Both the position numbers and the translations under genes were made by a program. A stretch of DNA of 64,000 nt, taken from Straminergon stramineum. Its lineage: Eukaryota; Streptophyta; Bryopsida; Hypnales; Calliergonaceae. The notes beneath the pieces are model-generated. The model saw only the letters and a list, made by a program, of their open reading frames with translations. It searched no databases and had not been told where the DNA came from. Location of the stretch: positions 15,753,001-15,817,000 of the forward strand of contig OY987272.1 in the NCBI GenBank assembly GCA_963920665.1. The letters are read 5' to 3'. Positions within the stretch are counted from its first letter, which is position 1. Each line of letters opens with the position of its first letter. Below are positions 10,005 through 31,060 of this stretch, piece by piece.

Positions 10005-10705
10005 TTCCATTGATATTCTACGCCATTCAGCATGATTTATCCTTAGTTGGCTCGATCGTCTTGATTCCTCTCATTCTGGTACCTGCAATGGGTGGCACGT
10101 CTGTGCGTAACTTATCGATTTGCATTTCTTCAGGCACGCCTTTGTGCTTTCTGTGAAACAGTTGGTTGGGGAATTTTTGGGAATGATTTTTGTTGTATCA
10201 ATGGTTGGCAGGAGGACACAGCCAAAGTTGTGTCAAGCATGCTTATGGTATCAGGACTGTCCACTCTTTTGCAGTCCGTACTTCTTTTGGATCAAGGTTG
10301 CCACTGATTCAGGGAGCGTCTTTTGTCGACCTCGCCCCAGCACTTGCCATCATTCGCCTTCTTCCCTGCCTTTGTAAACCATTCAAAAGATGTCAGTGCA
10401 CAGGCATATGTTGCGAGCGGCATTTGAGATTTGCGTTCAATCAATTTGAGATGTGTAATACTTCACTGAGAACGATCCCCCACCCACCCGTTTGCCATTT
10501 GAAGTTATACCATTCCCGCTTTGAAGGTACAATTGGTAAATGTGGGAAAGTGATTCGAGCAGCAACTAAGCGTTGTGGTGCCAACTGTGCCGACAGAGGT
10601 TCAAGATAACAATGAAGGAATTGCAAGGTGCTATAATCATTGGATCCAAGCATTTTGGGGATACAGTGGAGCTATGTCACTTCTTCTGAGGTGCTTCACA
10701 TGTTA
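10005..10705 (+). pseudogene. Nucleobase-ascorbate transporter (NAT) gene fragment
   Basis: Pieces of a xanthine/uracil-permease-type transporter are readable in order. At 10,005-10,092, after an acceptor ending GTGCAG, the frame gives PLIFYAIQHDLSLVGSIVLI and LILVPAMGG. At 10,212-10,274 it gives EDTAKVVSSMLMVSGLSTLL. After a frame change, 10,287-10,355 gives FGSRLPLIQGASFVDLAPAL. At 10,597-10,705, after another acceptor-like AG, it gives RFKITMKELQGAIIIGS, then a frame change and QAFWGYSGAMSLLLR. These are successive conserved segments of plant NAT proteins, most like the NAT11/12 type. Only the first third of the membrane domain is present and at least two frameshifts break it. The block is absent from the duplicate unit near 43,110, so it was gained by one copy or lost from the other. 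A functional product is not possible. Confidence 0.75.
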
Positions 10706-11288
10706 ACAGACAGAATCCAAATTGGCACTGATCAAGTGTCCTTTAGCGAAATTCACATTAAAGCACGATGTTAGGAAGCCTCCAGGCTCAGTTTTCAGTA
10801 AAAGAATTCCTGTCAAAGGATAAACACTGTAAAATTTATATAACGTCATTTGCATTATCTTTCGGTAATTAAATACGAGCTAATGGCCATTTCAAAGGCC
10901 GTAACTGAAGCAATTGCAACAAGAGAGAATGCGTGAACTTGAGAGAATGCTGAGAATGTAACACCTGGAAGCATATGATGGCTTTCATGTCTATTTCAAG
11001 ATCTCTTTGGATTTATCCGCACGGAAACCAACAACAACACTCAGACCGAATCTTGCACAAAGTCTAGAGCTGGAATCTACCAATAGCAAGAACTATGGAA
11101 ACCTGGCAAACACGGACACCACAAGAGTCTCTGAAATCTTCCCTTCGATTTATTATTCCCACTGAATCAGTAACACACTCTGTTCAGCAACAAGGAAATG
11201 CCAACACCATTGACATCACCGTAAAGAGATTTAAAAGCTAAAACGATAGCATGGTAATTGCATATTCGCCTCTTGACAACCTGGCCCT

Positions 11289-11706
11289 CTAATGCCGTCT
11301 CTGCCAAGCATAGAAGACTCGATTTGTGAGTCCACCCTCGGACATCAACGTCAAGCCATTCTCATCGGCTTTCCAAGCGCAGTTCTTGTAACATGCCCGA
11401 AACGTCGGGTCCCTCACGTACAAGTTGAATTTGCCCCACACGGTGGGTGCGGATGTGTAGACGGTGCACAACATGTAGGCGTTGGCGTCCGGGTAGAAGA
11501 TGTCAGTGTGGGTTACAAGAGGCGGAAAGATGGCCACTTTTTGTTGTTGGATATCAGAGGAGCATTGCACAAAGAGCTTGGAATTGGGGAAGGCATTTTG
11601 GACGGACAAGACACCCAGGCGGTTGGGTATCCTGGCCAGAGACGAGGACGATGGAGGTGGCCATGGCAGCCACCATCACGATGAAAGCAAGTCCCATGGT
11701 CACCAT
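11289..11706 (-). pseudogene. S1-like gene, broken by an 8-bp deletion near 11,616
   Basis: The ATG at 11,706 opens a signal peptide (MVTMGLAFIVMVAAMATSIV, cleavage probably after VSG). About 30 codons in, the frame shifts because eight bases present in the duplicate (43,911-43,918) are missing here. After the break, the second frame runs to the TAG at 11,289 and shows a full S1 core: NAFPNSKLFVQCSSD, YMLCTVYTSAPTVWG, YVRDPTFRACYKNCAW and ENGL. The four cysteines and the C-x3-C-x-W...DGL-like C-terminus are hallmarks of the S1 family. As it stands, translation from the ATG would give the signal peptide and a short unrelated tail. The 15.3-kb hAT element lies in its apparent leader intron. Its 3' flank is almost identical to that of the copy at 43,585. 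Confidence 0.8.
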
Positions 11707-11977
11707 GGTGAAAAACTTTTGAAAATTCACTTCTCTGGTCCGATAATGATCTGTACATATAAGAAAATAGCATAACAAACAAAATTTTCTATAAGTTCAA
11801 AGGAAATTAGGAGCTCTTTTTTGTAGCCTATTGAAAAGCATGGAAAATAGGAGATTGAAAAGAGAAGGGACTTCTAGGCTACAAGGAGGGCCTTGCAATT
11901 GTAGCAACATGAAACAGAGAGCTAGAACATGAAAAGAAATGAAAGCATTTACTCCTTCACAATAACTACCTTGCTTG

Positions 11978-11985
11978 GTCCAAGT
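11978..11985. repeat. 8-bp target-site duplication, left (GTCCAAGT)
   Basis: GTCCAAGT lies directly before the element end CAGGGTTGTCATA and again directly after the other end at 27,269-27,276. The paralogous site at 44,280-44,287 has one copy and no insert. Eight bases is the target duplication length of hAT transposons. Confidence 0.95.
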
Positions 11986-12225
11986 CAGGGTTGTCATATC
12001 GGACGGGTCAGGGTCACCGGACGCCCCGGACGGACTAGACCGGACGGCCGGACGGTCTGGACCGATCGGACGGCTTCAATTTTTCAAAGTTGTGGAATTT
12101 TTTTGAATGACACGTCACTTCGGACACCTAGATCCAGGGCTTGGACGTCATGTGAGGGCGTGGACTTCAGCATCAGCGTCAGGGCGCGGACTCCTTCAAG
12201 CAAGGCGTGGACGGGAAATGGTGGA
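11986..12225. repeat. Left end of the hAT element: terminal repeat and subterminal motifs
   Basis: After the terminal CAGGGTTGTCATA come six copies of CGGACG within 11,999-12,075. Four copies of an AGGGCG(C/T)GGAC-like motif follow in forward orientation, between about 12,134 and 12,220. hAT transposases bind short repeats just inside the terminal repeats; these clusters are the obvious candidates, but binding is inferred. Confidence 0.75.
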
Positions 12226-12616
12226 TTTTACTTATGTGTTCTCCAATATATGTATATATATATAAATTTATTTTTTGAACAAATGGGAGACCCCACTGCA
12301 TTAAAAAGAACTAGTAACTACAATATATTTTACATGATTGCACTCACCAATGTTTCCAACATGCCCGTCAAATACAAAAATACAGAAAAGAAATATTAGT
12401 AGGCTGCAATGTTTGTGATAACCAAAATTGTTTATAAAATTCATGCATTGCAAAGTACAATAACAATACAATGAATCTATACTTCCAAAATATGCTCACT
12501 TTCTCATAGGTTATCTAAGACATTCCTTTGGCTTCTCGTCCATCTTTCTTCCAATTGCTACAATTCTCTTCAACTCTTAAAGACTCAAGATCTACCATCG
12601 ATGCAACTCAATAACC
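12226..12616. other. 3' flank of the transposase gene
   Basis: AT-rich sequence between the subterminal repeats and the end of the transposase frame, with a short TATATA run at about 12,248-12,262. It should contain the transposase 3' UTR and polyadenylation site, but I could not fix a signal. No other gene is visible. Confidence 0.4.
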
Positions 12617-15600
12617 TCAATTATTCAAACGACTCGACCTACGAACTTCTTGGGCACTTGGATCCGCTACATTAGCATCTCGAACAACAACATCATCATC
12701 CTCTGGTGCCTCATCATTCGCATCTTCGTTGCTATCATATTCATCTTCTGCTTCACCGCTGTCCGTGGTCCAATGTCCCTCAACTTTCGAGTTTTCATTT
12801 CGAAGTTCTATTGTAGTTTGACCTTGACTACGTTTGCGCTTGAACCTCTTATGTCGTTGTGCGTTGGGGTCTTCTGCATCAGAATTTATAGTGGGTCCAC
12901 CTGGAATTGTTGGAACAACAAATGCCGGGGTTGACCCACTAGGTCCTGGTACGTATGTACTTAGGAACGGTTCTATCACCCTATTTGGATCTCTTGCCCC
13001 AATTCCAAGGAGTAGATGATTAGTAGGCCTTGATGATGATGCTTCTCCAATATGTTGACCTTCTCTTCGTCTATGGCCTCTACTTCCTCCACGGCCTCCA
13101 GCCCTTCCACGGCCTTTCGTTTGTCCACGGCCTTGTTGATATTGACCTAGTTCATGACGAATGGGGGGCCGAGGGGCCATAGGTGGTCTACCACCAATAG
13201 TACCACATGAAACGCTTTGCAGAGTCAAATCAACATTCCCCAGAGAGCCTAACCCTACTGGAGAAGGTCTTCAAATGGCATTGGAATTTGTTACTGAAGA
13301 AAGGTCTATGGAATGTGGTGTTTGTATACCTTGATCAGAAATAGTAGGATGGCCCTCAACTATAGCGGGTACACGGGCAAGGTCTTCTGGTGGTTCTACA
13401 AATGCAAAAACATCATTAGGGTCCACATGCTCTGGATCAAAAGGCCTTCTCACATTACCAGTTGGTTGGTTTCTTGCAATAGGGCGTGCCACTCTTGCAT
13501 TTCTAACGTTTCTATCATGATGTCCTTGAATAGCTCTAATGTTTCGAGTTGATGGCCCCACTCCTATAGGCCTTGTATTGCCATCTCGATTGTGAGAAGA
13601 TCCTCCACGGTTTGGATTTGCATTCTTCCCCTTGTTTACGTCGCCATCTTCATTTCCACCGCCATTTCCTGGAGGGAGGTTGTCATCATCGTCGTTGTTG
13701 TTATGGGAAATACCATCATCGACGTTATCGTCATTTGGATTGTTGGTCTCTAAAGAAGACAACAAAGCGGGGACTTCAATGATCCCTTCATTTTGAGGAA
13801 GTGGAGGTGAAGGACTGCGACGTGGATTGGGTGGAATGGGTGGCCCCCAAGGACCCCAATGACCATTAAGGAATTCCTCCTCTCCATCGTCAGCATCTCC
13901 GTAGTAGTTCCTTGCTTCCTCGAGGTGATCAGCTCCTCGCCTCCAAAGATCTGGGTTTGCCGGATACTCTTGAGGTGCTACGTAGGCTTCTCCATCAACC
14001 TCTTCTTCTTCCTTTGCTTGCATTGCGTCGAATTCCCGATTGCGTTCATTCGTTGGGAGCGGACCAAGGGCATCTGGATCGGAATCCTCCGAGTACATAT
14101 TTGCATCATACCAACGAACTGGATCGGCTCCTGGTCGCTGTCGAAGTACACGGCTATTGGTATAAATATATACCAATGACTTTGCCTTTTCGGGGGCTAA
14201 TCGATTTCGGACCTTATTGTGAACAAAGGAATACATACTCCAATTCCTTTCACAAGAGCTAGCAGAACATGTGAGGGATAAAAGACGCACAGCAATTTTT
14301 GAAAGAGCTCGATCTCCAACCCTGTGCCACCGTTGGTGGGGAAGCATTTGTGTTACACGGATGTTGGGTGTCATAGCTGGACTGTACGGTCCACTACCCT
14401 CCTCAAATTCTGTTAATTCCGCCAATACATCATCGAAATTCACACCCACTGAATCTGCCATCTTGCGGATGACTCTATACAATGCACGTAGGGTAGTTCC
14501 ATCCACCCTGAGCGCCACATTATCCAAGAGATATGGATTCAAAAGGGCCGCAGCGTAGTGTGTATCTTCAAAAACCATGTTCCATCTTTCATTGAAAGAT
14601 GCTTCCAAAATGACTGCTATGTCATCACGTAAGTTGAAAGGTGGTTCTCTTAAAGAATACACGTGCCCTCACAAATTGTGCATTACGAGCCACGCCCGAC
14701 CCATGGCTGGTTCTCGTCCATCAAACACACGCAAAGCCTTCAATACGTCTTCAGTCATGTACACGTAATTCACACATCGTTGCCAGAAAGCCACATCTTG
14801 AATGGTTCTTTTGACATTACGTGAAGCGGTAGCTGCCTGCGATCCATTTTGTTCGTTCCGTAGGGTATCAAAGTAATTTAGAACACGCGGGTGGTTATTT
14901 AACCGCTCCAAGACTCCTCTGAGTTTCACCAGTCGCTGCAACATGAGGAAATTACAAGCAAAGCGGGTTTCACTAGGCACTACGAGTTGCAGATTCGGAC
15001 TCAACTCACGAAAAACCGACATGGTTGCATGATGGTTTCGAATGTATTGGCACAATCTTTTTGCCCTGGCAATTAAATCCGAAAATTCCTGGATTTTGGC
15101 CCAATCTTCCAACATGAGATCCAGTGCATGTGCCATGCAACCTTGCGCAAAAATGTGCGGATATGTTCGAGTGATGTCTTGCAATGCCCCAAGTATGTTT
15201 GTTGCATTATCTATGCACACTTGTGTCACATATTTGGGATCCACCTTCTCAATGTACACTTTCATTTGGTCCGCTATGTAGTGCATTGTTTTCTTTTGCG
15301 AGGTAGTATCAATTGACCCCAAAAATACATCACCTGCAGGGCATGACATCATCGCATTCATGAAGGGCCTCCGATTGACATCATCCCAACCATCGGTGCA
15401 TATCAACACCCCATAGTGCTTGACAGCAAATCCAACCTTCTCTTGAATCTGCTTCTCAATTTGCAACCTCCTCGGTTCAATTAAATTAGTCCTGAACTGA
15501 TGGTAAGAAGGTGGACTATATTCAAACCTTGCCTGTGAGGTTGCCTTTACAGCCTCAATGAAGGCTGGATGCCTTGCCACATTAAATGGCACATTCGCTT

Positions 15601-16123
15601 CATAGAAAAAACTTGCCCACTTCTCATCCAACTCCTTCTTCTTTGCAATGTTGAATGCGTCCGCCATGCGCTGCTGACGTAGTGATCCAGATCTCGTAGA
15701 ATTCGATCCAACAAGACTATATGACGTTTGTAGAATATCATTTCCTTCTGAAACGTTTGCCCTTTCTTCCACTCTCCCACCATTGATCCCACCCGTCACC
15801 TCATTTTCAGTAGCTTCACTTGAACTTGCACGAGCAGTTGCTCTAGATGGCGCACTTTGAATTGGTTCTCCCTCATACATGTCCTCGACATCCATTCGTA
15901 GCGGGACAAAACCTGTACAATTGGCAAATCTATGTCGCACATGATGAGGCATACTTCGACAAATTGACCTCTCCGATTTTGAGCCATATCCGAAATGTGC
16001 AAAAGCACACTCACGTTTGTAATTGAAGGTCCCAACACAGAAAACACAAGTCACCTTAATCCCATTCTCCGTAAAGTTCAGCCATGGTTCCCATTCCTTG
16101 GTCTGCTTCCTTTGACTTGCCAT
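12617..16123 (-). pseudogene. hAT transposase with two in-frame TGA stops
   Basis: One reading frame runs from an ATG at 16,123 (MASQRKQTKEW) to 12,617, about 1,168 codons, interrupted only by TGA at 14,669-14,671 and TGA at 13,271-13,273. In order it has a BED-like zinc finger near residues 12-75 (VTCVFC, later AFAHF and HHVRHRF) and a DUF659/hAT catalytic region. There, CTDGWDD and VCIDNATN supply the two aspartates and CMAHALDLML the conserved C-x2-H. It ends with a hAT dimerisation region (LLSLTCSASSCERNWSMYSF), whose ERNW supplies the glutamate, then an acidic Asn/Gly-rich tail and an RGG-rich, basic C-terminus (RGRAGGRGG, KRFKRKRS). The first TGA falls between the catalytic core and the dimerisation domain. 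Both could come from CGA to TGA changes, common in methylated transposons. It would cut and join the element ends. The ATG at 16,123 was chosen because upstream codons lack a conserved feature. Confidence 0.88.
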
Positions 16124-16382
16124 TGCGTTCAACCGTTCACAAATAATTTCAAATGTCTTCCTCCTCCTTCGTATTGAAGTTAAAAAGATCGTAGATATAC
16201 CGAACAAAGTATCAGTAACAGCAGTTAGCGCTAATCCATTGCTTGAACTGATTTTGACATCACCTCAGCAGCAAACTAGGGCCATCTGCCACCCAAGTAG
16301 ACTCACAAGGAGCTCAAAATGAATTGAAGTCTAAGAGATAGAGGCCAGGTGACAAATGTGGGGAATGCCGGGTCTTCCTTTT

Positions 16383-16392
16383 CTTTATATAC
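16383..16392 (-). promoter_or_regulatory. TATA box of the hAT transposase gene
   Basis: The minus strand reads GTATATAAAG about 260 bases before the ATG, directly next to the GC-rich AGGGCG-type repeat cluster that begins at about 16,400. The RING and kinase genes of the same element have the same TATATAAAG core beside the same kind of repeats. Confidence 0.55.
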
Positions 16393-16399
16393 TTAGGGA

Positions 16400-16765
16400 A
16401 TGCAGGGGCGTGGACTTCACCGATGTGCGTGGCAGCAGGGCGCGGACGTCTTCATTCCCAAAGTGTAGGGCGGGGACGCACACTTCAATCCCTGGCATCA
16501 GGGCGCGAATAGGAAGGTAGGGCGGGGACTTGAAGTTAGGGCGCGGACTCCAGGGCGCGGACTTGAAGTCAGGGCGCGGACTCTAGGGCGCGGACTTGAA
16601 GTCAGGGCGCGGACTCCAGGGCGGACAATTCACAGAGGCGGAAGAACTTGAGAGAGCGCAGCTGAATCACAGACTCCATAGTGTGGATTTGAAGTTAGGG
16701 CACGGACTTGAAGCCAGGGCGTGGACGTGCTCGTCTAGCACAGGAGGCAGGACTTTGAAATGCGC
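16400..16765 (+). repeat. AGGGCGCGGACT repeat cluster upstream of the transposase
   Basis: A run of units close to AGGGCGCGGACTTGAAGTC, often alternating with AGGGCGCGGACTCC, at spacings near 20 bases. GC content is far above the surrounding DNA. The units point toward the right on the plus strand, as in the left subterminal region. Confidence 0.85.
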
Positions 16766-16959
16766 TTGGGCTTTGACATTCTTCAGTCCCTCCTTTTTTT
16801 GGAGCGGGGGAACCATTAATTATAGCCTCAACAACTTGTTTTGGATTCCGACAAGGCAATGAAAGCAAGATGCCAAATAAAGAACTCCATTGACTAAGAT
16901 TTGGAAGAAACTTCATGGAAGAGCATGTCCCCTTCATTGTGATGAAAGATGTTAGCAAA

Positions 16960-18000
16960 GCTCTCCCATCCCAACTCTATGCCATTCATTTGCGTTTGGA
17001 TCATTCTCTCTCACATATTTTTGGCTTCATTCTTGAAACTCTCACATTCCAACTTATACTAATTTTTTTCTTTTGGTTGAATCATTCTTTCTTCTATTTT
17101 GTTCCTAAAACACTCCCATCCCAACTCAAAGCCAAATGTTCATTTTTTGTTCCATCATTCCTTTCCCTATTTTTTTGAATCATTCCTAAAACTCTCCCAT
17201 CCCAATTCATTGTTCTTTTTTTTATTTGTTGAATCATCTCCTTTTCTATTTTGTTTTGCTTCATTATTTAGCAAGACTCTTTTCTAGTTTTCTTCCAACT
17301 CCATGCCGATCTTGATTTGTTGAATCATTCCCTTTCCTATTTCATTTTTGCTTATTTCCTAAAGTTCTCCCACCCCAATTCAAAGCCATTAATTTTTTGT
17401 TCCACCATTCCCTTTCCTATTTTTTTTGGCTTTGGATTCCTAAACACTTCCATGCCATTTTGGGGGGGTGGATTAATTCCCTTTCCTATTTTATTTGTTT
17501 CATTAGGAAAGTTGTTCCATCCCAAGTTATACAAAAACTAAATGGCATTATTATTCCCATCCTAGTTTTTTTGGGCTTGATTAGCAAAATTGCTCCATTT
17601 CAACCCAAGACCCAACTCCCCCGAGGCCATTGAAATGATTTAATTTTTGTATTCCCTAAACCCTTTCTAATTTTTTTTGGTTTCATTTGCAAGATTATTC
17701 TATCCCAACTCAATGCCATTTATTTTTTGGTATATCATTTACTTACTAATTTTTTGTGGGCTTCATTTGCAACATTATCCCATGCCATCCCAATGCCCTT
17801 TATTTTTTGTATATCATTCCCTCCCTAGTTTTTTTTGGCTTGATTAGCAAAATTGTTCCATCCCACCTCAATGCACTTTATTTTTCGTATATCATTCACT
17901 CCCTATTTTTTTTGGCTTGATTAGCAAAACTCTTACATTCCAACTCAAGGCCATTTAGTTTTGTGGTATCCCAACTCAATGATAAATTATTTTTACGATA
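16960..18000. repeat. CT-rich degenerate tandem array, copy A
   Basis: A unit of very roughly 65-75 bases repeats with many small changes: CCCTTTCCTATTTTTTT, then GGCTTCATT-like, then AAACTCTCCCATCCCAACTC, then AATGCCATTT. No protein is credible: the small ORFs inside are repeat-derived. It follows the GC-rich cluster and the block at 16,619-16,940, and the same order recurs in copy B at 19,749-22,020. Confidence 0.7.
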
Positions 18001-19448
18001 TCAAATTGAAGTCTTTCCATTCTCTTTGCATGTCATATACACAAAGTAGGTAAGAAAAAAAATTGAGGATAAAGGCTATCATATGCATTAGAAAAACAAC
18101 ATTGGCAATCAACACCTTGCATTAAATCTCTAGGGTCACTCCATCCCAACTCCATTCCAACTCAATGATAAATTTTATTACAATACATTTCCATTCTCTT
18201 CACATGTCATAAAAAAATAGATAATAAAAAAATATGAAGTTAAAGGCCATCACATGCATTAGAAAATCAAGAATGACAATGGATACTTTGCATTAAATCT
18301 TGAGTAGAAAAATTTAACCCATTTGTTTATGGTACATGGGGCAAAAGACTCTTTCATAAAAAGGAAAATAGTTAAAAAAAAATTCCTATCCATTTAGGTC
18401 CCAACTTTGTATAAAATAGAATTGTAGGGCCTTACATCGGATCCTACCCTTGGATTCCCTGCTTGCCTCAAATTTTCTTCCTTGGATTTCTTTCTCCCCG
18501 TTTTTCTTTGCTAGAATTATATTTTAGCAAAAAATCAAATTCAAGTATTTGTGTTTGGGATTTAGGCCCTTAGGCTCAAACATTGTAACTTGTAACTAAA
18601 GTTTTGAATCATACCGAAATTAAATTTATGAAAGTTTGGATGACCCCATCCCTCGTTATGGGCATTGAATTTCAAAGCACTTACATTTGAAGTCAATGCT
18701 ATTTTGGGGGGTTGGATAACTTGGAAGGGAACCATTTCTAAGAAAATAGCTACAAGGGATGGTTTTTGAATGGAAGCTCAGATCTTCCATTCTTTTGGAT
18801 TCACGTGAAGGGACTAATATTTGAAAATGCTTGGTATAAGGGTTTTTGGAATAATTGATAGAATGAATTTTATTAATGAACCCATAGGTTTTATTTCTTC
18901 AAATCCATCATTCATAATAAAAGATTCAATTTGAGGCATATTAACTAAAAGAAATTTATTTCGGAAACGAGAAATTACAAGTTACATTTTCTTCTAAATA
19001 TAAAGGGATTGTTTGCTTTTGCTCATATCTCTTCATTGTCTAGCCTTTGTGGCTTGTCCTTTTGTGTATTTTTTTTTATGCAATGGTTCTTTCCATTTGT
19101 TAAAAAAACAAAAAAAATGTAAAGGGATTCAAGTTTTTTTTATTACCTGGCAGTTGGTACAAGGGACTATTGCTTAATTGAACGTACAAGTTAAATTGAA
19201 GTAGAATGATTGTGAATGCCAATCCATGATTACGAATCATTGGTACAAGAAATTGATTTTCACATGAACTTACAAGTTATATTGATTTGAATGCATGAGA
19301 AGGGTTCTTTTCTAAAGGTAATTGCTACATCTATTTGTTATTTAATTCAACCCTAAGCCATTAACTCAAAGCATAAACCCTAAACCCTGCACTCTTGAAA
19401 CCCTTGGTCAAAATAATTCAAGAAGTTGGAGGGTGGAACTTCACTGCG
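18001..19448. other. AT-rich interior of the hAT element, no gene seen
   Basis: A pair of related segments (about 18,000-18,120 and 18,170-18,300, both with GCATTAAATCT near their ends) marks a small local duplication. Otherwise I find no long frame, RNA gene or defined repeat. Confidence 0.5.
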
Positions 19449-20035
19449 ATGGCGCTACTCAAGGCGTGGATGTCATCATAAGGCGGGGACTGAAGGGCGA
19501 GGACTCCACAGTGAAACTCCACTACATAAATGTAGGTGCGCACATGGGGATGCACTAGGCATGGGATCCCTCCTTCTTCCTATTTAATGGTCTTGGAAGA
19601 TGGTGTCCCCCCTTTTCATGGAAAGAGGGAAACATTAAATGCTGTCACACCTTTCTTTAGAGTCCTCATATTCATGGAGAGACAAGAATGCTTTCTCTCA
19701 CAAATGTTTTTGCTGAATGGGCTGTGTCAGGGCGCGGACGCAGGGCGCGGACTTCAGGGCGGACAATTCACAGAGGCGGAGGAACTTAAGAGAGCGCAGC
19801 TGAATCACAGACTCCATAGTGTGGATTTGAAGTTAGGGCGCGGACTCCAGGGCGCAGACTTGAAGTCAGGGCGCGGACTTCATGGCGCGGACTTGAAGCC
19901 AGGGTGCGGACTCCAGGGCGCGGACTTGAAGTCAGGGCGCGGACTTCAGGGCGCAGACTTGAATCCAGGGCGCGGACTTGAATCCAGGGCGTAGACTCTA
20001 GGGCGTGGACGTGCTCGTTCAGCATAGGAGGCAGG
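19449..20035 (+). repeat. Second AGGGCGCGGACT repeat cluster
   Basis: Weaker units occur at 19,457-19,510 (AAGGCGTGGA, AAGGCGGGGACT, GGGCGAGGACT). A dense array follows at 19,729-20,030, made of AGGGCGCGGACTTGAAGTC-like and AGGGCGCGGACTCC-like units. From 19,749 to 20,225 the sequence is a close direct copy of 16,619-16,940, expanded by extra units. The apparent ORF across it (19,536-19,994) is a translation of the repeat. Confidence 0.85.
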
Positions 20036-20449
20036 ACTTTGAAATGCGCTTGGGCTTTGACATTCTTCAGTCCCTCCTTTTTTTGGAGTGGGGGAACCAT
20101 TAATTATAGCCTCAACAACTTGTTTTCGATTCCGACAAGGCAATGAAAGCAAGATGCCAAATAAAGAGCTCCATTGACTAAGATTTGGAAGAAACTTCAT
20201 GGAAGAGTATGTCCCCTTCATTGTGGTGGGAAATGTTTTTCCTTACTTCTTGCAACACTTCAAACTACTTTGAACCAACAAATAGTTTAGGGTGTAAAAA
20301 AAAGACTCTAAATTCTAAAGTGTTTAGGACACTTTGAGGAAATATTTAGGAAATGTTTTGGAAATGTAGTGTACTAGATAAAAGGGTAAAACCTCATTTT
20401 GTTTAAAATGAAAGAAATAGTAGGGGGTTAAAAAAAATTCTAGGCCTTC

Positions 20450-22020
20450 AATACGTCACTTGAATTTTTAATTCCATCGTTCCCTTTCCTATCTTGGGGG
20501 GCTTCATTCCTAAAACTCTTCCATCCCACCTCAATGCCATTAATATTTTTGTAAATCATTCAATTTTCTTTTTGGCTTCATGAACTCTTTAAACACTTCT
20601 ATTTCAACTATTTGCCCTCTGTTTTTTGTTCCACCATTTCTTTCTTCATTAATTCCTAAAACTCTTTTATTCCAACTCCATGCCAATATTTATTTGTTGC
20701 GTCATTTCCTTTCCTATTTTTTTTGCTTTCCATTTTTTTCCCTTCATTTATTCCTGAAACTCTTTTATTCCAACTTTAAGCAAGCTTTTTTTTATTCCAT
20801 CATTCCCTTTCCTATTTTTTTTACTCATTAGCAAAATTCTTCCATCCCAACTCAATAATAAATGTTTTTTATGGTACCAAATTGGAGTCTTTCCATTCAC
20901 TTCCCATTTCTCATATGAAGAAATAGGTAATCAATAATAAGATTTGTTTCATATCTCTTTCACATTTGTTTGCTTTTATTAACATTTAAAATGCACTTAC
21001 ATTCCAATGGAATGACATTTATTTCCCTTCCCTAGTTTTCGTCATTGATTGGAAATGAATCCTACTCCAATTCAATGACATTTAATTTCATTCCCTAAAT
21101 GTTTTTATCATTAAATCCTATTCCAATTCAATGACATTACATTTCTTCACCTAATTTTTTTATCATTGAATATTTGAATCCTATTTCAACTCAATGACAT
21201 TTCATTTCCTTACCTAAATTTTATCCCCATTGAATCCTAATCCAATTCAATGACATTTCATTTTTCTCATTAACTTTTTTATTTATTAAATCCTATTCTA
21301 ACTCAAAGACATTTTACTTCCTTCCCTAATTTAAAGTTTTCAATTTTATTTTGTAGTCATTTTTTGGTAACCATTTTATTGGATATGTACCTATTTCCAT
21401 CCCAATTTAATGATTCCCATTTACCTTTCCCAATTTTGGGTGCTTCGGATAACAATACACTTCCATGCCATTTTTTTGGTAGGATTCATTCCCTTTCTGA
21501 TTTTTTTTGCTTGATTAGCAAAATTGTTTCATCCCAAGTCATACAAAAACTAAATGGCGTTATTATTCTCTTCCTAAATTATTTCCAACTCAATGCCATT
21601 TTTTTTTCATTGATCATTCCCTTCCTAATTTTTTTGTGCTTGATTAGCAAATTGCTCCATTTCAACCCAAGTGCATTTAATTTTTGTATTCCCTAAACCC
21701 ATTCTATTTTGGGGGGGCTTGATTTGGAAGATCATTTTATCCCAACTCAATGCCATTTATTTTTTGGTATATCATTCTTTCCCTATTTTTTTGCTTTTCT
21801 CCATCATTCCTTTGCCTATTTCAGTATTTTGCAATTAAATATGTACCTATTACCATCCCATTTTTGGGGGGGTTCCATCATTCCTTATTTCCTTTGCATT
21901 AATGACATTTCAAAAGTGTTTTTTTCCTATTAAATGACATTTGTGGTCCTTCCCTAATTTTATTCATTGATTGGAAATTGGGAATGAATTTTACTCCATT
22001 TCAATGACATTTCATTTCAT
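20450..22020. repeat. CT-rich degenerate tandem array, copy B
   Basis: Same unit type as at 16,960-18,000. The two arrays share specific landmarks, for example ATACAAAAACTAAATGGC at about 17,530 and 21,541, so they derive from one large duplication rather than separate growth. From 20,980 to 21,310 the unit changes to a shorter form, TTCAATGACATTTCATTTC. Confidence 0.7.
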
Positions 22021-22245
22021 GGTATAAATAATTTTAATACGTATGAAGTCGACAAGTCGTTTCAAATGGGTATGTGCAAAAAATAAACGAAGTCAATTTG
22101 GGCAAAACCATTCAAAACAAAATCATATATATTTCATATGCATAGTGTAATATAAAGTAGGAAAGTATATAAGCCTATATAATGCTAGGAAAGTAAGTCT
22201 TCTAAGAAAACCTAAGCTCACTAGCTAGAACACTCTAAACTATAC

Positions 22246-24543
22246 TTAGTCAATGTTCATTGGACTACTTGCACTACCACTTGGTCCAGCCTCATTGTCA
22301 TGTGTCCCGGCGTGGACTGGAAGGTCTTCATCTGAGCCCAAACAAAGTCTATGAACTGCGGATCGAGTTCTCCTTGCTGGTCGGTCTTCCTCTAATATAG
22401 CCCTCAATATTTGTGATTGTTTGAGGCTCTGAAGACATTGGAGAGTTCCCAGGCTATGTTGTTCTAACAAATAGTCCATCCCTTCATTTCGAAAGGTTTC
22501 TCGCCACTCTGACTCCAATAGTTGTGCAAGTTCAACAGGGTCTGGCATGCCAATGTCTTCCCCCATCCGCATCCCATTGTCGTCAGTAATGCGAACTCCA
22601 TCAACGCCCCATAACCATCCACGAGGATGAGGTCCAAATTGGAAGTGTTGTCCAGCTTCGTTCCAATGCCCATTGAAGCATTGGAAGAAGAAATTCCGTC
22701 TTCCTTGGCTGAAGTTGTCCTTTAGTGGAACCAAGTGGTGGCACACCTCCACAATTTGAGCCGGATCTCTTTCCCAACCCCATTCGGTACAAAGGTTTTG
22801 TTTGTCCAACGAATGGATGTTCAATTTCCAGCTCCACACCAAGTCTGTTCCCCACTTTTGAGAATGATCAGGGGCATTTTCAGCATTGAATTCCCAATGC
22901 GGTGGCATGTAGGGAACTAATCCAAACAACTCATACAAGCGCTCATAGAAAGGAGCCTTGCACAATGAATAGCGTCGGCGAATAATCATCAAGCTAATTA
23001 GGCAGAATGGGTGGTACAAATGTTCACACGTGCCTAGGTGCATTCCACCTTCTGGGCCAAATGGATTAAGACAAATGGGACATGTAGTTCCATCATGCAC
23101 GAAGGTTGAAGGATTTGGCCACAGTAGTAATGGATTGCCTTGATGGTCGACGGCAGAGCCAACTGCATTCTTGAAATCCCAAGCATGTTTGGACCAATCG
23201 ATGGATGTTGGTCCACCACCAATGTTGATGGTTGTCATTTCATCCATATTGAAAAGATCATCCACCAAGGCCCACGATGTCAAACCAAAAACCCTCTCTT
23301 GATTGTTCGCGCCGTAATTGTTGTCTATTTTTTTGAATTCTTCCACCATTTGCCTAGTTCTGTCAACACTAAAGATGCATGCCATCTTCCATTGGTAATA
23401 TTGCTCCATCAACGCATGCAATTGATTTTTCAATCTCAAATTGTTTGCAAGCGCGTCCGTTAGTTGGGTGCTTCGGTCAACTGGTATTGCTGCAACTACA
23501 TTCGTGGGTAATTCTCCGAAGGACAATGAATCTTCTTGAGTACCCATTGTTGCACCAACTTCTGTATGTTCCAATGGAATTTGAGAATTATTTGAAGGCC
23601 CTTGCGCTTCCCCTCGTGGATCCTGACCAGCATTGGTTAATGTTGCTACCTCAAGAGCGTGTCGAAGTACCTCCATCTCAAGTTGTTGTTGATTGATGAT
23701 GTTGTCCTTCTCTTTGATTTCTTCCCTCAATTTGTTGACATCATCATATAAAGAATGCAATTCCGTATTCTTGTCATTCACTTCAGTCAACAAACTCTGA
23801 ATTCGGTTTGCAACAGCTGTAACATCAACAATTCCTATTGTTGGTTCGTCAGTAGGTGGCACCTGTTCCTCCACAACATTTTCTGGTAAAACCTCATTAG
23901 TTGCACGCGCAGCCCTCCTCTTTTTAGCACGTTGTTGTTGTGTTCTAGGGTTGACTACAATTGGTACATGAGATCCATTAGAGTCGCTGTCCGTAGATGA
24001 ATCCGAAGTGTCATAGTTTCGTGGTGCGCGAACCTGTGTAGTTTTTTTCGATAGACCACCTTCCGGGTATCTTTTTACCCCCTTTGGAATGAATCCATTC
24101 TCTGGGGGAGGAATTTTGACATTTTCCCCCATTGTCTTCAAAGTTGACCAATCCACTCTCTTGTTCAACTTCACCTCCGCATGGACCCCTCGTGCAATGA
24201 AAAGATGCACTTCATTGCGTGTGACGTTCAGGACATCATACAACACCTGGAACACCTCAATGCATCGGTTCGTGAACTCATTGTCAAGGCAATGTTTCAA
24301 ATTTGCCTTGTGGAAGCGTCTATGAAAGTTATGTCGCTCTTCCGGGAAGACCTTGTCAATGTGGCACCACTCGATGTAATTGGTGCAGTCATCATAAGTC
24401 CATGGATCAGGCACGTCCTCCCACCCCTTGAATGCAAGCTTGGCAGGGTTACGTAGAACATGCAGTTGCTTACGATGTTTGGTTCCTACTCGCAGTCGAG
24501 TCTTGTCTCGTTCCTCCTTGGTCCTTCTTGGTGGTGTAGCCAT
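22246..24543 (-). CDS. Coiled-coil protein with degenerate RING-type zinc finger, hAT cargo
   Basis: An uninterrupted 765-codon frame starts at the ATG at 24,543 (MATPPRRTKEERDKTRLRV, good AAAATGG context). Residues 1-150 are basic and unfamiliar. A basic patch near residues 200-215 (QRAKKRRAARA) could direct it to the nucleus. About 242-305 is a heptad-like coiled coil (LLTEVNDKNTELHSLYDDV onward). At 488-528 there is a RING-H2-like motif: C488-x2-C491-x14-C506-x-H508-x2-H511-x2-C514, with C528 kept but Tyr at 525 where the seventh ligand is expected. The region after the finger (residues 530-690) is rich in Trp and His and unknown to me. RING proteins usually act as ubiquitin ligases; with a lost ligand that is uncertain. 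Its lack of stops contrasts with the broken transposase, hinting at selection or a recent insertion. Confidence 0.82.
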   Translation of the reverse strand: MATPPRRTKEERDKTRLRVGTKHRKQLHVLRNPAKLAFKGWEDVPDPWTYDDCTNYIEWCHIDKVFPEERHNFHRRFHKANLKHCLDNEFTNRCIEVFQVLYDVLNVTRNEVHLFIARGVHAEVKLNKRVDWSTLKTMGENVKIPPPENGFIPKGVKRYPEGGLSKKTTQVRAPRNYDTSDSSTDSDSNGSHVPIVVNPRTQQQRAKKRRAARATNEVLPENVVEEQVPPTDEPTIGIVDVTAVANRIQSLLTEVNDKNTELHSLYDDVNKLREEIKEKDNIINQQQLEMEVLRHALEVATLTNAGQDPRGEAQGPSNNSQIPLEHTEVGATMGTQEDSLSFGELPTNVVAAIPVDRSTQLTDALANNLRLKNQLHALMEQYYQWKMACIFSVDRTRQMVEEFKKIDNNYGANNQERVFGLTSWALVDDLFNMDEMTTINIGGGPTSIDWSKHAWDFKNAVGSAVDHQGNPLLLWPNPSTFVHDGTTCPICLNPFGPEGGMHLGTCEHLYHPFCLISLMIIRRRYSLCKAPFYERLYELFGLVPYMPPHWEFNAENAPDHSQKWGTDLVWSWKLNIHSLDKQNLCTEWGWERDPAQIVEVCHHLVPLKDNFSQGRRNFFFQCFNGHWNEAGQHFQFGPHPRGWLWGVDGVRITDDNGMRMGEDIGMPDPVELAQLLESEWRETFRNEGMDYLLEQHSLGTLQCLQSLKQSQILRAILEEDRPARRTRSAVHRLCLGSDEDLPVHAGTHDNEAGPSGSASSPMNID

Positions 24544-24671
24544 TTTTGCAGGAAAATTCGAAAACCTCCAACGTGGCAATCAAGTAGACCCCGCACAACG
24601 CTCACAACCAGCTCAACAAAGAGGTGGAAGGCTGAGAGTATGCAGGGCGGGCATGAATGGGGCGGAAACGG

Positions 24672-24681
24672 CTTTATATAG
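24672..24681 (-). promoter_or_regulatory. TATA box of the RING-like gene
   Basis: The minus strand reads CTATATAAAG, 129 bases before the ATG at 24,543. It is the mirror partner of the kinase TATA box at 24,808-24,817, with the GC-rich repeats between the two. Confidence 0.6.
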
Positions 24682-24689
24682 TTGGAGGT

Positions 24690-24860
24690 GGGGGACGCCA
24701 GGGCGCGGACGCCATCACAAGGGGCGCGGACTCCATCGCAGGGGGCGTGGACCTCTGGGAGAGGGGCGGGAACACTAAAAGTCAGGGCGTGGACGTGAGC
24801 GGGGGGACTATATAAAGCGAGTCCCCGCCCTCATTTCTTTGCCAAGTCCGCGCCCTATGC
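24690..24860. repeat. AGGGCGCGGAC repeats in the divergent RING/kinase promoter
   Basis: Forward units lie at about 24,699, 24,721, 24,741, 24,763 and 24,782 (for example AGGGCGCGGACGCC). Reverse units lie at about 24,822 and 24,844 (GTCCCCGCCCTC, AAGTCCGCGCCCTA). Orientation flips close to the kinase TATA box. This cluster is shorter than those at 16,400 and 19,729. Confidence 0.8.
24808..24817 (+). promoter_or_regulatory. TATA box of the kinase gene
   Basis: CTATATAAAG lies about 200 bases before the ATG at 25,012, embedded in the GC-rich motif cluster. The same ten bases on the other strand serve the RING-like gene. Confidence 0.6.
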
Positions 24861-25011
24861 CTCACACGCTAGTTCGTCCCCGTGGCCTATGTGAGTGAGT
24901 TTGGTGGGTGGTGGGCTTGGCCCGCATATGTGACCTGGTTTTTTTGAATTTTTTTTAACTTTCGTGCTTTCGGATAGATACGGAGGCCCATCGTACCAAA
25001 TTTTTTTCATT

Positions 25012-26592
25012 ATGACAAGGGAAGGGAGTGGATCTGCGGAAAAACGTCCTATGTTTAAAGATTTGGATGATGTCGGTGAGATGGTAATTCCATCCACGAA
25101 CACATTGATGTCCTCAGGTTCATCAAATCCTTCCTCATCAGGCCAAAAGAAGCGCAAAAAAACCCAAAATCCCCATATGCCTCCATATGAATTCATAGTT
25201 GAAGGGAGAGCAATAGCTGTGGTGTTCTACACTCGTCGAGGTACAACTATGTTGACTAGGGAGTATGTGGTGCACAACGAAGAAGGATACCACAAACTGA
25301 CAAGGGACTTGCAAAGGGAGCTGGAGTCAAAGTTTGAAGCATCTGAGAAATTCAACAATTTCTCTGATTATTGGTTGCACCAAGATTGGCTGGATAAACA
25401 GGTAGTTGCCCTCACAACCAATATAGTGTCAAATTCGTGTTACCACACGGGTAAGAAAGAGGATGGTAGCGATTGGGACATGCAGAACAAAGAGTTGGTT
25501 GCAAAATTGAAAATCATTCAAAATTTTGCTCAACAATTTTCTTCATCGCGTAAGAAAAAGAAAGCACCATGGAAAGCGACAATTGAAGACACAATAAGGG
25601 CTCATTGTGTGAGTGGAACATTCAAGTGGCTTGAAAGTTCAGTAAAAGTCATCCCCATGCCGAAACAGAGTGCGGTTGGTTCATATGGGACCGTGAGGAA
25701 GGTGATGCTTACAAAACTTGAGAGCATTCCTAGTTGGATATTTTTTGCTGGGAAGAGCTTGAAAACCACAAATGAAAAGGAGAAGCGCCAAGGAATCATC
25801 AATGAGGCGGGAGGGTGTCCAGTGATACATCCTGGCATCATTCGAATTGCGTACCTCCACCCTAAAACGATGGAAGGCTATACGATGTGGTGGAATGGAG
25901 GATCTCTAATTTCTTTCTTATCCAAATACAATTCGAAAGTGAGCGAATCAGTGGATGCGGATGACATTGAGCGTGAACAAGGTACGGGGTTGACAAAAGA
26001 GGAGCTTGCATGGGTTGCAACTTACCGAAAGAACCAAGTGAACTTGGCACTCTCCTTGCTTGTCATTGTGGGGAAATGCCACGATGCACAGTACATGCAC
26101 AACGACATAACTCCATCCAATGTTTTGCTCCATTTTGATGATTGGAAAGAACAGAGGGTGTACATAGGGATATGTGATTGGGGACTTTCTAGCCGAGTTG
26201 TAGAGAAGGAGCCATCAAGGTATGGCTTTCCCAGCATGGAGATTCTGGCAAAAGAGAAGAAGAAGCGAAGGTTTGCAGCCCCTGAATTGATTTATGTATA
26301 CGGAGAGCAAGGTTCAGCAAATTCAATTGAGGCCATGCAGAAAACACATTTGTACTCCATAGCTGCTGATGCACATGCGGCGGGATGGATAGCAACTACA
26401 ATTTGGAAAGAGGACTGGAACCCCAAATACTTTACAACGAAGAATCCAGAGCAATATCATAACCTCAGGATCAAATTGGAAAGCCTCGGAAAAGAGGATG
26501 TGAGTGAAAGGGCGTCAGTGCCAGATGTTCTAGACACATTTAGAAACGCACCCCACTGTTGGACTATGCCAGATTGTTGTTATCGTACATAG
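25012..26592 (+). CDS. Atypical protein kinase, hAT cargo
   Basis: A single 526-codon frame from the ATG at 25,012 (MTREGSG) to the TAG at 26,590. The first 210 residues are not a known domain to me; QKKRKK near residue 45 may be a nuclear signal. The kinase fold follows. The glycine loop is G223-S-Y-G226-T-V228. K248 (FAGK) fits the ATP-binding lysine and E265 the helix-C glutamate. Then come IHPGIIR, the catalytic loop H363-N-D365-I-T-P-S-N370-V-L-L, the metal site D389-W-G391 in place of DFG, and A423-P-E425. All residues needed for phosphotransfer appear present, so an active Ser/Thr-type enzyme is plausible; targets are unknown. It is divergent from, and shares a promoter region with, the RING-like gene. 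An internal stop-free frame suggests it is recent or constrained. Confidence 0.85.
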   Translation: MTREGSGSAEKRPMFKDLDDVGEMVIPSTNTLMSSGSSNPSSSGQKKRKKTQNPHMPPYEFIVEGRAIAVVFYTRRGTTMLTREYVVHNEEGYHKLTRDLQRELESKFEASEKFNNFSDYWLHQDWLDKQVVALTTNIVSNSCYHTGKKEDGSDWDMQNKELVAKLKIIQNFAQQFSSSRKKKKAPWKATIEDTIRAHCVSGTFKWLESSVKVIPMPKQSAVGSYGTVRKVMLTKLESIPSWIFFAGKSLKTTNEKEKRQGIINEAGGCPVIHPGIIRIAYLHPKTMEGYTMWWNGGSLISFLSKYNSKVSESVDADDIEREQGTGLTKEELAWVATYRKNQVNLALSLLVIVGKCHDAQYMHNDITPSNVLLHFDDWKEQRVYIGICDWGLSSRVVEKEPSRYGFPSMEILAKEKKKRRFAAPELIYVYGEQGSANSIEAMQKTHLYSIAADAHAAGWIATTIWKEDWNPKYFTTKNPEQYHNLRIKLESLGKEDVSERASVPDVLDTFRNAPHCWTMPDCCYRT

Positions 26593-27075
26593 TATTTAGT
26601 TGTTTCACTTTTTGTAGTTTAGCATATAGTTTAGGCATAGAAGGTAAATCATCCTCATAGAGGACCATGTGTACCTACTTGGAAATTGCCAAACACCTCA
26701 AAATATATATAAAATCGGATGTATTCTATACTCAAAATCTCATAATATATTAATATTTCATTTGATTGTTCTTTCTCATTGCATTTTTATGAGTTCTATG
26801 AATTGATGATAAAACTTAAAATAAAAACAATGAATGCAATAGTTTGGTAGAAAAATACATACACTTTATGTTTTCACTATGCCTATGTTTTAGGAGTTCA
26901 TGAAGCCCCCTAAAAAAAAGAAATGATCCACCAAAAAAAAATGACATTGAAGTAGATTGGAAGAATTTTAGGAATGAAGAAAAAAATATGGAGTGTTGGA
27001 GTGACTTGGAATATGGCATATGAAATATGAAATATGAAATGGAAATATGTAAAAGCATATTAATTTAGCATATGT
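26593..27075. other. 3' flank of the kinase gene, no further gene
   Basis: AT-rich DNA between the kinase stop and the right subterminal repeats, presumably containing the kinase 3' UTR. The minus-strand frame at 26,816-27,058 is low-complexity and looks accidental. Confidence 0.45.
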
Positions 27076-27268
27076 AAATCCAGTCCGCGCCCTGACGATT
27101 CCATCCACGCCTTGCATGTTGCAGAATCCATGTGGCATCCACGTGGCCTATTTTTCTGTTTTCATGAAGTCAACTTTGTGTTGACTGTATCGGACGGGCG
27201 AGACCTCTAACGGACGTCCCGGACAGACAGACGGGCGAACTGGACATCTGTCTACTATGACAACCATG
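27076..27268. repeat. Right end of the hAT element: subterminal motifs and terminal repeat
   Basis: AGTCCGCGCCCT at about 27,081 is the reverse form of the motif found at the left end, followed by TCCACGCCTT. CGGACG copies lie at about 27,190 and 27,210. The element ends TATGACAACCATG at 27,268. Inverted placement of the long motif at the two ends is what a transposase-binding subterminal repeat would show. Confidence 0.75.
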
Positions 27269-27276
27269 GTCCAAGT
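27269..27276. repeat. 8-bp target-site duplication, right (GTCCAAGT)
   Basis: Identical to 11,978-11,985. After it the sequence continues CCAAACATCCACAATTCTC, exactly as the paralogue continues after 44,287. Confidence 0.95.
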
Positions 27277-27371
27277 CCAAACATCCACAATTCTCTCCAA
27301 ATTCTTTTACTAAAATTGACCATCATTTAGGAAGACTTGGAATTGAGCATGGAAAGAAATTAAAGCATCTA

Positions 27372-28424
27372 GGTGATTGCAAGAAACACTTGCTAGTTTC
27401 GTTGCATTTTGATTTTGAAACGCTATAATTTTTGAATTATGAATCTAATTCCAAAACCAAAACATCTGTTTCTAGATATCTTTCTTGTTATTATATCAAT
27501 TATTTTTCAAAAATTTAAAATAATCATTTATATCTAAAAGTCAATTTTGTTAATTTGTCACACTTTGACGTTTAGGGGTTTTTCATACTATTGAGTGGTT
27601 TAAATTAGTGATTTTCAGCTGAAATTTCTATGGTATATTAGTTTAGTAGGCATACATTTGTCTACCAAAGGGAATCTAATAATTCATTATTTTACATCCT
27701 CCACGCTCATTCAAATAGGCCTCTCTTCTGCACCCAATTCTAAACAATAGAGATAGTTTTGAACTCATTTTTTTGCTCAAATCTCATCACTAAGAAGTCC
27801 TCCCAAATGGACAATTTTTAGTTTTGTTGAAATTTGTTTTTCCTATTTTCTACAAATTAAAATGTCAAAGTATGTATTTTCCATGACATATTCTGGGACA
27901 TAGAATTCTAGCAAAGAAAATACATACTTTGACGTTTTAATTTGTAGAAAATAGGAAAAATAAATTTCAACAAAACGAAAATTTTTTCATTTGGGAGGAC
28001 TTCTTAGTGATGAGATTTGAGCAAAAAAATGAGTTCAAAACTATCTCTATTGTTTAGAATTGTGCGTGCAAGAGAGGCCTATTTGTACAACATGGAGGTT
28101 ATAAAATAATGAATTTTTAGATTCCCTTTGGTAGACACCTGTATGCCTACTAAAATAATATACCATAGAAATTTCAGCTAGGAATCACTAATTTAAACCA
28201 CTCAATAGTATAAAAAACCTCTAAACGTCAAAGTGTGACAAATTAACAAAATTGACTTTTAGATATAAATGATTTTTTAAAATTTTTGAAAAATAATTGA
28301 TATAATAACAAGAAAGATATCTAGAAACAAATTTTTTGGTTTTGGAATTGGATTTATAATTCAAAAGTTATAGCATTCCAAAATCAAAACCCAACAAAAC
28401 TGGCAAGTGTTTCTTGCAATCACC
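27372..28424. mobile_element. 1,053-bp foldback element with arms of about 500 bp
   Basis: Ends GGTGATTGCAAGAAACACTT and its complement, flanked by CATCTA on both sides (27,366-27,371 and 28,425-28,430). The right arm at about 39,150-39,160 has the uninterrupted site. The two arms are close complements around a centre near 27,895. No coding region. It shares end sequence with the 735-bp element at 4,542, and the arm interior (TGTCACACTTTGACGTTTAG) resembles that element too. Confidence 0.85.
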
Positions 28425-28912
28425 CATCTACCGCTTTAGGTATGAAAAGTGAAAAGCCAAACTAGTCAATATAGATGTTTCAACTTCACAATAACTAGCT
28501 TGCTTGGAAGTCCAAACGTCCACAATTCTCTCCAATAATCCAACTAAATTAATGTGCATACTAAGATTGGACTATCAAAAAGCCTTGGAATCCAATTCTT
28601 CATAAGGAATTTGGAACAACAAGCACCACAAAAACCTATCGTGCTAGACTTGATTGAAGATCTACTAGTCAAGACATCCTCATAATGTCCTCCTCAACAC
28701 TAAATACATCAATCACGCAAATGAATTGCTCGTTGACAAAACAAAGAACCATGAAGGGAAAAGCTACAACAAGCACAACCTCACAACAAGAGAAAGGAAA
28801 AGCAAATTGAAACAATACTCACAAAGTTGTCGATTAGCAATAAGCATGGATAGGAGGAAGGAAGGACTCACAAGACAAAGAAGTTGAGAATGAGAGAGAC
28901 TATGGTTGGGAT

Positions 28913-28924
28913 GAGTTTATATAG
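28913..28924 (-). promoter_or_regulatory. TATA box of the 11,289 S1 pseudogene
   Basis: CTATATAAACTC on the minus strand, identical to the S1 promoters at 1,013 and 38,659. It is now separated from its coding region by about 17 kb because of the insertions in the leader intron. Confidence 0.45.
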
Positions 28925-30568
28925 GCCCTGGATCATTTTGGTAGAGTGATTGTGAAGTGTCTATCGGGTCTCAATATAAGCCATCTCGTTGGTTAGTTTG
29001 AAATGGTTGAGCAATCTCATTAGGTGGTTTCATTTCAATTAGATTTGTATGTGTGTGTTGTGTATTATTGTTTTTGTTCAATAGCAAATTTCAAAATAAA
29101 GATTGGAACTTGGTATCATTCTAGTGCTTAGATTTTATATATTGACGAAGACTTTTTCTTAGAAAATTGCAATTGCCATTATCAATCTTTCTGTTACAAT
29201 CTTGGCGCTCTATTGCTTTCTTGAATAGTTAGTCCTTACTTTTGACACACTTTTAGTGTTGAAAAGTTTCTAACAAACTTTTGAATGGCTATTTTGTATG
29301 GTGAAGATAAGCTATCATTAGTCAAAGATACCTTTGAAGCACATTTTTGCCCGAAGTGTCATCGTTGACAACAACCTTCCATGTATGCAAAACCTACCTT
29401 GTCCCTCAAGCTTTTGCCCCTTGAATTCTTTTCATGAAATTGCTTGAAATGTTTTAAGATACTTTGAATTTTTCTTTGAAAACCTTTCACCGCGCTTTCT
29501 ATAAAGGCTTTGAATGGAATTTATAGTGACATGTACTAAAGTCTTTGTGATCACAAGTATTTGTTTCAAAATGGCCTCATTATAGTGATTTTAGAAATAG
29601 TATTTTTTCAGGAAAAGAAAATATAGATAATTTCTGAATTATTTAAAATACTATGTGGATGAAAATTAAAGCTAAAAAAAAGATTCTCTAAAAATTATGC
29701 AAGATAAAGAGTGATGGAAAATGCCAAGAAAATAGATTGTTTGATGTTTGATTTTGAAAAAATAGTAAGAAAATTCAATATAATAAACTAAAAGAAACAT
29801 TTTTTATGATTTGAAGATACTTTTTTTAAGCCATTTTCATCTTCAATAAAAAGAAAATTTATTCTCTGCACTGACGCAAAGTTAGTGCACTTTGGATACA
29901 TGTGGAAGGTGGATACTTTATTATTATTAGAATATTTCTTTGTGGACTTGTGTAGCTTTAGTAGAATTCCTTAATTTGCATTTTTGGGTCGAATATAGTA
30001 CTACCCCATCCCCCCAAATGGCCAAATGGTAAAGGTAGATATCAAATTTGGAATTTTTTTTAAATTAGCAAACTAATTCCAAAAAATTCGAAAATAATTG
30101 TTCAATGTCTATAACTACCATGTGTACCTTCGTTTCAAATTTCATGTATAATTGACACATGACACAAAAGTTATAAGCAAAAAAACCTAGAAAAAACCAC
30201 ATGTCTGAGTGTTTCTTGCAATCACCCCCACATAAACATGTAGATTCCATGTACATTCACAAACAAGAAAGGAAGATTTGAAAAACTACCTATCCCCATT
30301 ATCTTGTACAGTTGCTTGCCCATGTCAACTAAGGGCTCAAAAGTTGTTGGAAGAGTGTTCTAACCAAAAGTACATATTCATTATAATGAGAAAATGTGGA
30401 GTTAGTCTCATTTAGTTATGATCTTATATTTAGAATGTAACAAGTGTTCATGAAATTAAGACACTTCAGTAAATTGGAAATTACATATGTCATTGAAATA
30501 GTTCTTGATTTCTCTAAGTATGAAAACTAGGAGCAACAACCTCCAATTTGCACAATATATATTCCACA

Positions 30569-31010: not shown

Positions 31011-31060
31011 ATGTCTTTAATTGGGTTTAGGGGGTTCTATCATGAGGTACTATAACTTCC

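Follow-up and report, generated by a model that had tools for sequence, protein, structure and literature searches.

The window analysed here is a stretch of 64,000 bp from the genome of Straminergon stramineum (contig OY987272.1, positions 15,753,001 to 15,817,000; C10:15753001-15817000 in the genome searches reported below). It contains a 15,283-bp transposon of the hAT superfamily, spanning positions 11986-27268, in which a transposase gene, a gene for a RING-like coiled-coil protein and a divergent protein kinase gene are enclosed by near-perfect 13-bp ends. The presence of this three-gene element, first noticed in a sequence-only reading of the window, was confirmed. Its terminal inverted repeats, CAGGGTTGTCATA at 11986-11998 on the plus strand and, as the reverse complement, CATGGTTGTCATA at 27256-27268 on the minus strand, agree at 12 of 13 positions, and the end core GGTTGTCATA is found at just two sites in the 64 kb, both of them ends of the element, against 0.13 expected. 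Two copies of GTCCAAGT, at 11978-11985 and 27269-27276, flank the element as a perfect 8-bp target site duplication (8/8).

When the two flanks are joined, they match positions 43139-44382 of the window (1189 matches, 47 mismatches and 10 gap columns), where a single GTCCAAGT is present and no footprint is seen. Across the junction itself, this paralogous empty site covers 43880-44382 on the plus strand, with 93.6% identity over 503 bp. Since the empty site holds one GTCCAAGT and no footprint, and the paralogous segments diverge by 47 substitutions per 1236 aligned bases (3.8%), the insertion most likely came after the local duplication. The ends, the 8-bp duplication and the empty site, from which the boundaries had originally been set, are all real; ends and duplication enclose both the kinase and the RING-like gene, which belong, as had been claimed, to one transposed unit, and the same arrangement recurs elsewhere. 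The 8-bp duplication, the short terminal inverted repeats and the Dimer_Tnp_hAT and DUF659 domains are features of hAT membership. Mutator-like elements have a Mutator-type transposase and a 9-11-bp duplication; here only hAT domains are detected at meaningful scores, and the duplication is of 8 bp.

The transposase frame occupies positions 12617-16123 on the minus strand, with its ATG at 16123 and in-frame stops at 14669-14671 and 13271-13273. DUF659, which is common in plant hATs, and the hAT dimerisation region are located on the two larger pieces of this interrupted frame, the Pfam matches being at E 2e-33 for DUF659 (115.5 bits, cut-off 34.7) and 2e-6 for Dimer_Tnp_hAT (28.1 bits, cut-off 21.4). 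By eye, TDGW, CIDNA and SCERNW were taken as the candidate catalytic acidic triad, and a CxxC near the start as a candidate of BED type; no BED zinc finger was matched by Pfam in the transposase. Comparison of the translated frame, with X at the stops, against solved structures gave no match at E 0.1. Codon usage of the transposase pieces correlates with that of the cargo genes at 0.42-0.58, the corresponding values against one host gene, too short to carry weight, being -0.10 to 0.05.

The kinase gene (25012-26592, plus strand, with ATG at 25012 and stop at 26590-26592) is a single open frame, whose chance of staying open at its base composition is about 1e-15. Its Pkinase match passes the curated cut-off (E 5.9e-9, 36.1 bits vs 31.7), and the putative catalytic Lys, HxD Asp and DxG Asp, recognised by eye, presumably lie in FAGKSL, HNDITPSN and CDWG. 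Among solved structures, VRK1 is its nearest relative (E 0.014). Neither prokaryotic genome contigs nor viral contigs yielded a confirmed close relative of the kinase, and single-sequence structure prediction gave a mean predicted local distance difference test score (pLDDT) of 33.5. The RING-like gene, a 766-codon frame at 22246-24543 on the minus strand with ATG at 24543, is likewise a single open frame, with a chance of about 1e-20 of staying open. The best Pfam RING model is matched at E 1.2e-3, under the Pfam cut-off, and among solved structures RING finger protein 24 comes closest (E 2e-4). In the predicted structure (mean pLDDT 38.8) the coiled coil appears as a helix at 242-306 in an otherwise weak model, and only a stretch of it exceeds 70. 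No close relatives of the RING-like protein were confirmed in viral contigs.

All three genes share one promoter design, made up of TATATAAAG and arrays of the motif GGGCG[CTG]GGAC. By pattern search the motif was found at 27 sites in the window, all of which lie within the element but outside its three gene frames, against 0.013 expected from a first-order Markov model based on the element. Five clusters are seen: two copies near the left end (12156-12191, plus strand), ten before the transposase (16406-16726), eight in the spacer (19730-20010), beside which no gene was recognised, six in the gap between the RING-like and kinase genes (24701-24855) and one near the right end (27083-27092, minus strand). 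TATATAAAG has four sites in the window, the fourth of which lies outside the element at 34437. The other three, each in sense orientation, are placed upstream of the start codons by 260 bp for the transposase (16383-16391, within a minus-strand promoter extending over 16383-16726), 129 bp for the RING-like gene (24672, minus strand) and 195 bp for the kinase (24809, plus strand), the latter two forming a divergent promoter at 24672-24855. TATATAAAG is the predicted TATA box of all three genes, standing beside the motif arrays in an element-specific promoter module.

The arrays differ in spacing, with alternating 14 and 19 bp at the transposase and 21-bp steps between the cargo genes; for this reason they look as if separately expanded, rather than copied from one promoter. 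In other copies of the element, TATATAAAG is kept in all four that were read between the cargo genes, the start of the RING-like gene is identical in the three reads that reach it, and one copy, on C2, has five motifs in exact 21-bp steps. Of 50 listed intervals of 300-600 bp that separate a RING-like gene from its kinase, 41 have a length of 388 bp plus a multiple of 21 bp, to within 1 bp; the binomial value of 1e-26 obtained for this treats as independent copies that are in fact related. The A+T-rich spacer (16950-22036) consists of degenerate repeats, includes a partial duplication of a block, and has no match elsewhere in the window. Over 16486-22036, the degenerate A+T-rich repeats include a block duplication at offsets of 3.1-4.0 kb.

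The genome (326,016,511 bases in 59 contigs) was searched with each of the three genes and with the left end; all resulting match counts are lower bounds. The kinase returned at least 80 matches (79 scored of 766 candidates), namely the window, 74 at 89-96% identity and five at 63-66%. Two matches on C6 are probably pieces of one copy, and at least 61 others, at 85% identity or more, are full-length. For the RING-like gene at least 59 matches were obtained at 90-100%, window included (59 scored of 1702 candidates), the others, at least 58, falling at 90-97%. The first 484 codons of the transposase gave at least 89 matches (88 scored of 837), and the left end at least 49 (40 scored of 137); 34 of these, at the window and at least 33 other loci, start at the terminus and reach the query's end, and were used, and 15 fragments, at six further loci, were left out. 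The five kinase sequences at 63-66% identity, located at C11:14090181, C7:15480614, C11:11148060, C11:5332642 and C5:1324427, have 6-13 stops per copy and constitute a second branch, perhaps an older subfamily.

The three genes recur in linkage. A divergent kinase lies within 20 kb of 57 of the 59 listed RING-like matches, and within 2 kb of 56 of them. A transposase in the expected orientation was found within 40 kb for 72 of the 75 listed kinase matches at 85% or more (window included), at 5-15 kb in 66 cases; in a control with 2000 random placements the mean was 0.49 and the maximum 4. Each of the 34 left ends is followed by both a transposase and a kinase, and at least 27 also by a scored RING-like match. 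When 80-bp probes were positioned by their distance from the RING-like gene alone, all six copies examined gave a transposase match, at 95-99%. Insertions with the same ends and the same cargo are present in dozens of copies at unrelated loci; outside the window the genome contains at least 79 kinase and at least 58 RING-like matches. This recurrence supports the multi-gene hAT lineage that had been proposed from the window.

Outside the window, 65 kinase matches reach the end of the kinase, and for the 20 best-scoring of them 401 bp around the expected right end were read. In all 20 the identical right terminus was found, mostly some 680 bp beyond the kinase; resemblance to the window ends at this point, and the flanks are unrelated. 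For ten of these copies the left flank was read as well. As two of the reads fell inside the element, eight copies were testable, seven of which (on C1, C3, C5, C7 and C9, and two on C6) show perfect 8-bp duplications. Lengths estimated for 30 elements, on the assumption of the window's kinase-to-right-end distance, fall into groups of 12.0-12.2 kb (five), 15.2-15.8 kb (18, window included) and 16.3-25.0 kb (seven); the 12-kb class may consist of copies without one spacer block. Two 12-kb copies, at C10:1923708 and C10:7565154, have equal scores for left end, transposase pieces and RING-like gene, which suggests that the pair probably stems from one segmental duplication and not from two insertions.

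The surroundings of the element, at positions 1-11985 and 27277-47251, are a patchwork of direct and inverted duplications with 74-96% identity. They include at least one S1-like gene, of self-incompatibility type, at 11289-11675 (Self-incomp_S1, E 3.3e-5, just over the cut-off), a match indicative of a land plant, and a similar frame at 43661-44074. At 96 bp to the right of the element, a near-palindrome of 1,053 bp (27372-28424), with arms about 91% alike, is missing from the paralogous segment near 44382 and looks like a separate foldback insertion. No Rfam family was matched in the window at gathering scores.

The three genes, whose order and bounding ends are constant, have transposed together on many occasions and left 8-bp duplications behind. 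It is very probable that they define a three-gene, autonomous-type hAT transposon family of a land plant, in which the cargo genes are integral parts. Several observations weigh against this conclusion. The eighth testable copy, on C8, has an unmatched duplication (3/8). Eighteen listed transposase matches are not linked to a kinase and, sorted by eye, comprise ten diverged sequences, four second pieces of split genes and four close sequences: for the ten diverged ones (50-72% identity) no kinase was scored within 40 kb in the arrangement expected, and for the four close ones none was scored in place, a RING-like match being near one of them. Similarly, four of the five listed diverged kinases are without a scored transposase within 40 kb; the fifth has one of the close family at 32 kb.

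The RING-like motif itself has seven of eight metal ligands (C489, C492, C507, H509, H512, C515 and C529), the last Cys being missing, so that the protein is one ligand short of the eight of RING finger proteins. A distant relative, with about 32% identity in two collinear open pieces, is located on C11 (approximately 4,998,000-5,000,500) and has the eighth cysteine (L013:7997-8776, L012:3-491). It was met in one of twelve sampled 10-kb stretches, and six further sampled stretches contain no such relative. As no kinase match, transposase match or motif is present in the 30 kb around it, the RING-like protein appears, as far as these 30 kb show, to have at least one relative outside the element family. 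A possible hAT end near this relative, at C11:4991001, has no partner with a matching duplication in the 30 kb.

The decay of the copies bears on the same conclusion. In other listed copies, the number of stops per 1000 codons is alike for the kinase (3.8, in 61 copies), the RING-like gene (3.1, in 58) and the transposase (3.7, in 61, counted over the first 484 codons), and stop-free frames are found in 10 of 61 full-length kinases and 5 of 58 RING-like genes. The contrast drawn in the sequence-only reading between open cargo frames and a broken transposase is weak: the element in the window has two stops in total, which would both land in the transposase frame with a chance of 0.23, and across the listed copies the stop density of the three genes is about equal. 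Stop-free cargo was rejected as a sign of preservation, since all three genes decay alike across copies, and for the same reason there is no sign of a host function that preserves the cargo in place.

As to how the element operates, it is somewhat probable that a protein of its own, most simply the transposase and otherwise the RING-like protein, binds the motif arrays. Such binding would lead to joint expression of the three genes and would bring the ends together for cut-and-paste transposition. The kinase and the RING-like protein would be accessory factors, which keep the element expressed or mobile despite host silencing; this role in anti-silencing or mobility control is proposed tentatively, by analogy with VANC, which plays such a part in VANDAL elements. 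It is conceivable, on an equally speculative footing, that the hAT lineage has its own three-gene operating system under one promoter code, with cargo that defeats silencing or times transposition, in the latter case via phosphorylation or ubiquitin-type control. A further point to be set against this account is that any action of the kinase or of the RING-like protein on the element is hypothetical. The signalling or ubiquitin-type function initially suggested for the cargo is not supported beyond a reading of the domains, the RING-like motif being without its eighth ligand.

The best-surviving alternative, considered unlikely, is that a hAT element captured two neighbouring host genes once, and that the composite was amplified with passengers useless to it. 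Although both proteins have host-type domains, the kinase is so distant from ordinary solved kinases (best E 0.014) that it is not a common host kinase copied recently. The listed family is fairly homogeneous (90-97% protein identity), as from one burst, yet the kinase branch at 63-66%, which may be linked to such ends, exists. Equal decay of cargo and transposase in inserted copies, along with the ten listed diverged transposases without a scored kinase in place, would fit passengers, whereas the use of the same TATA box and the same motif arrays by cargo and transposase, and a cargo array that has its own spacing and is turning over between copies, argue for genes that belong to the element. 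A very improbable explanation is that the arrays are ordinary promoter sites for host factors, and that the cargo serves the host, for instance in defence signalling, with the element as a mere vehicle. The arrays do directly adjoin the TATA boxes, and a kinase and a RING-like finger are the domains involved, but the motif is also found near both ends, where no gene starts, and nowhere in the rest of the window, and the cargo decays at about the rate of the transposase, with few stop-free listed copies. That a hAT of 4-5 kb and a second mobile unit, carrying the kinase and RING-like genes, were nested or fused, as the repeat-rich spacer with its duplicated block and the two main size classes of the transposase-to-kinase distance might suggest, is already contradicted for the present family by the single pair of ends that encloses the three genes, by the gene order at 34 of 34 left ends and by the perfect whole-unit duplications in seven of eight other copies, and could hold only, with minimal probability, for the origin of the family.

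As a rule, plant hAT elements are regarded as transposons with a single gene, and cargo genes in a hAT are unusual because such elements normally carry a transposase only. In titles and abstract openings of the open-licence PMC literature, no described hAT with kinase and RING-like genes was found, and within that literature the gene set appears undescribed. A term search of the main text of a 2026 review on plant gene capture showed that hAT and kinase are absent from it as whole words (PMC13317346).

ToxhAT, an element of about 14 kb with cargo, was first called a hAT and in this resembles the present element; unlike it, ToxhAT is fungal and has a TA duplication, and its authors reclassify ToxhAT/ToxTA as likely non-autonomous and of Tc1/Mariner type, so that it provides no hAT precedent (PMC12506042). 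Pack-TYPE elements, hAT ones included, also hold non-transposase coding DNA between the ends of a DNA transposon. They are described as non-autonomous elements with captured fragments, whereas the present family has a transposase gene, linked in the 72 of 75 listed close kinase matches reported above, and two full-length frames in many copies (PMC8903248). The grapevine Hatvine elements share with the present family hAT transposase domains, short inverted ends, 8-bp duplications and many stop-bearing copies. Grapevine hAT-related families of fixed length are reported to measure 2-5.5 kb, and the long Hatvine-6 elements contain sequence that is often copy-unique and host-like, unlike the fixed gene pair shared here (PMC2528002).

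Two Mutator-like systems are closer in organisation. Kaonashi (KI) elements, which carry an Ulp1 protease gene, are, like the present family, multi-copy plant DNA transposons that combine a transposase with a host-type regulatory gene, of a ubiquitin-like pathway; they differ in being Mutator-like, in the domain involved and in having no kinase and RING-like pair (PMC13317346, PMC2528002). VANDAL elements have, like the present one, several genes per element and dense same-orientation motif arrays that turn over between copies, the VANC target arrays being described as dense, non-coding, in one orientation, and gained or lost with tandem repeats (PMC5735166). Unlike the hAT family described here, VANDAL elements are Mutator-like, with another transposase. 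VANC is not known to be a kinase or a RING protein. If true, the operating system considered above would be, among hAT elements, the equivalent of VANDAL anti-silencing, with a kinase among its components. The family allows one to ask why a cut-and-paste element keeps a kinase and a RING-like protein, and whether anti-silencing or mobility-control systems had separate origins in different transposon superfamilies; with dozens of copies of differing ages in one genome, the question is testable from sequence alone.

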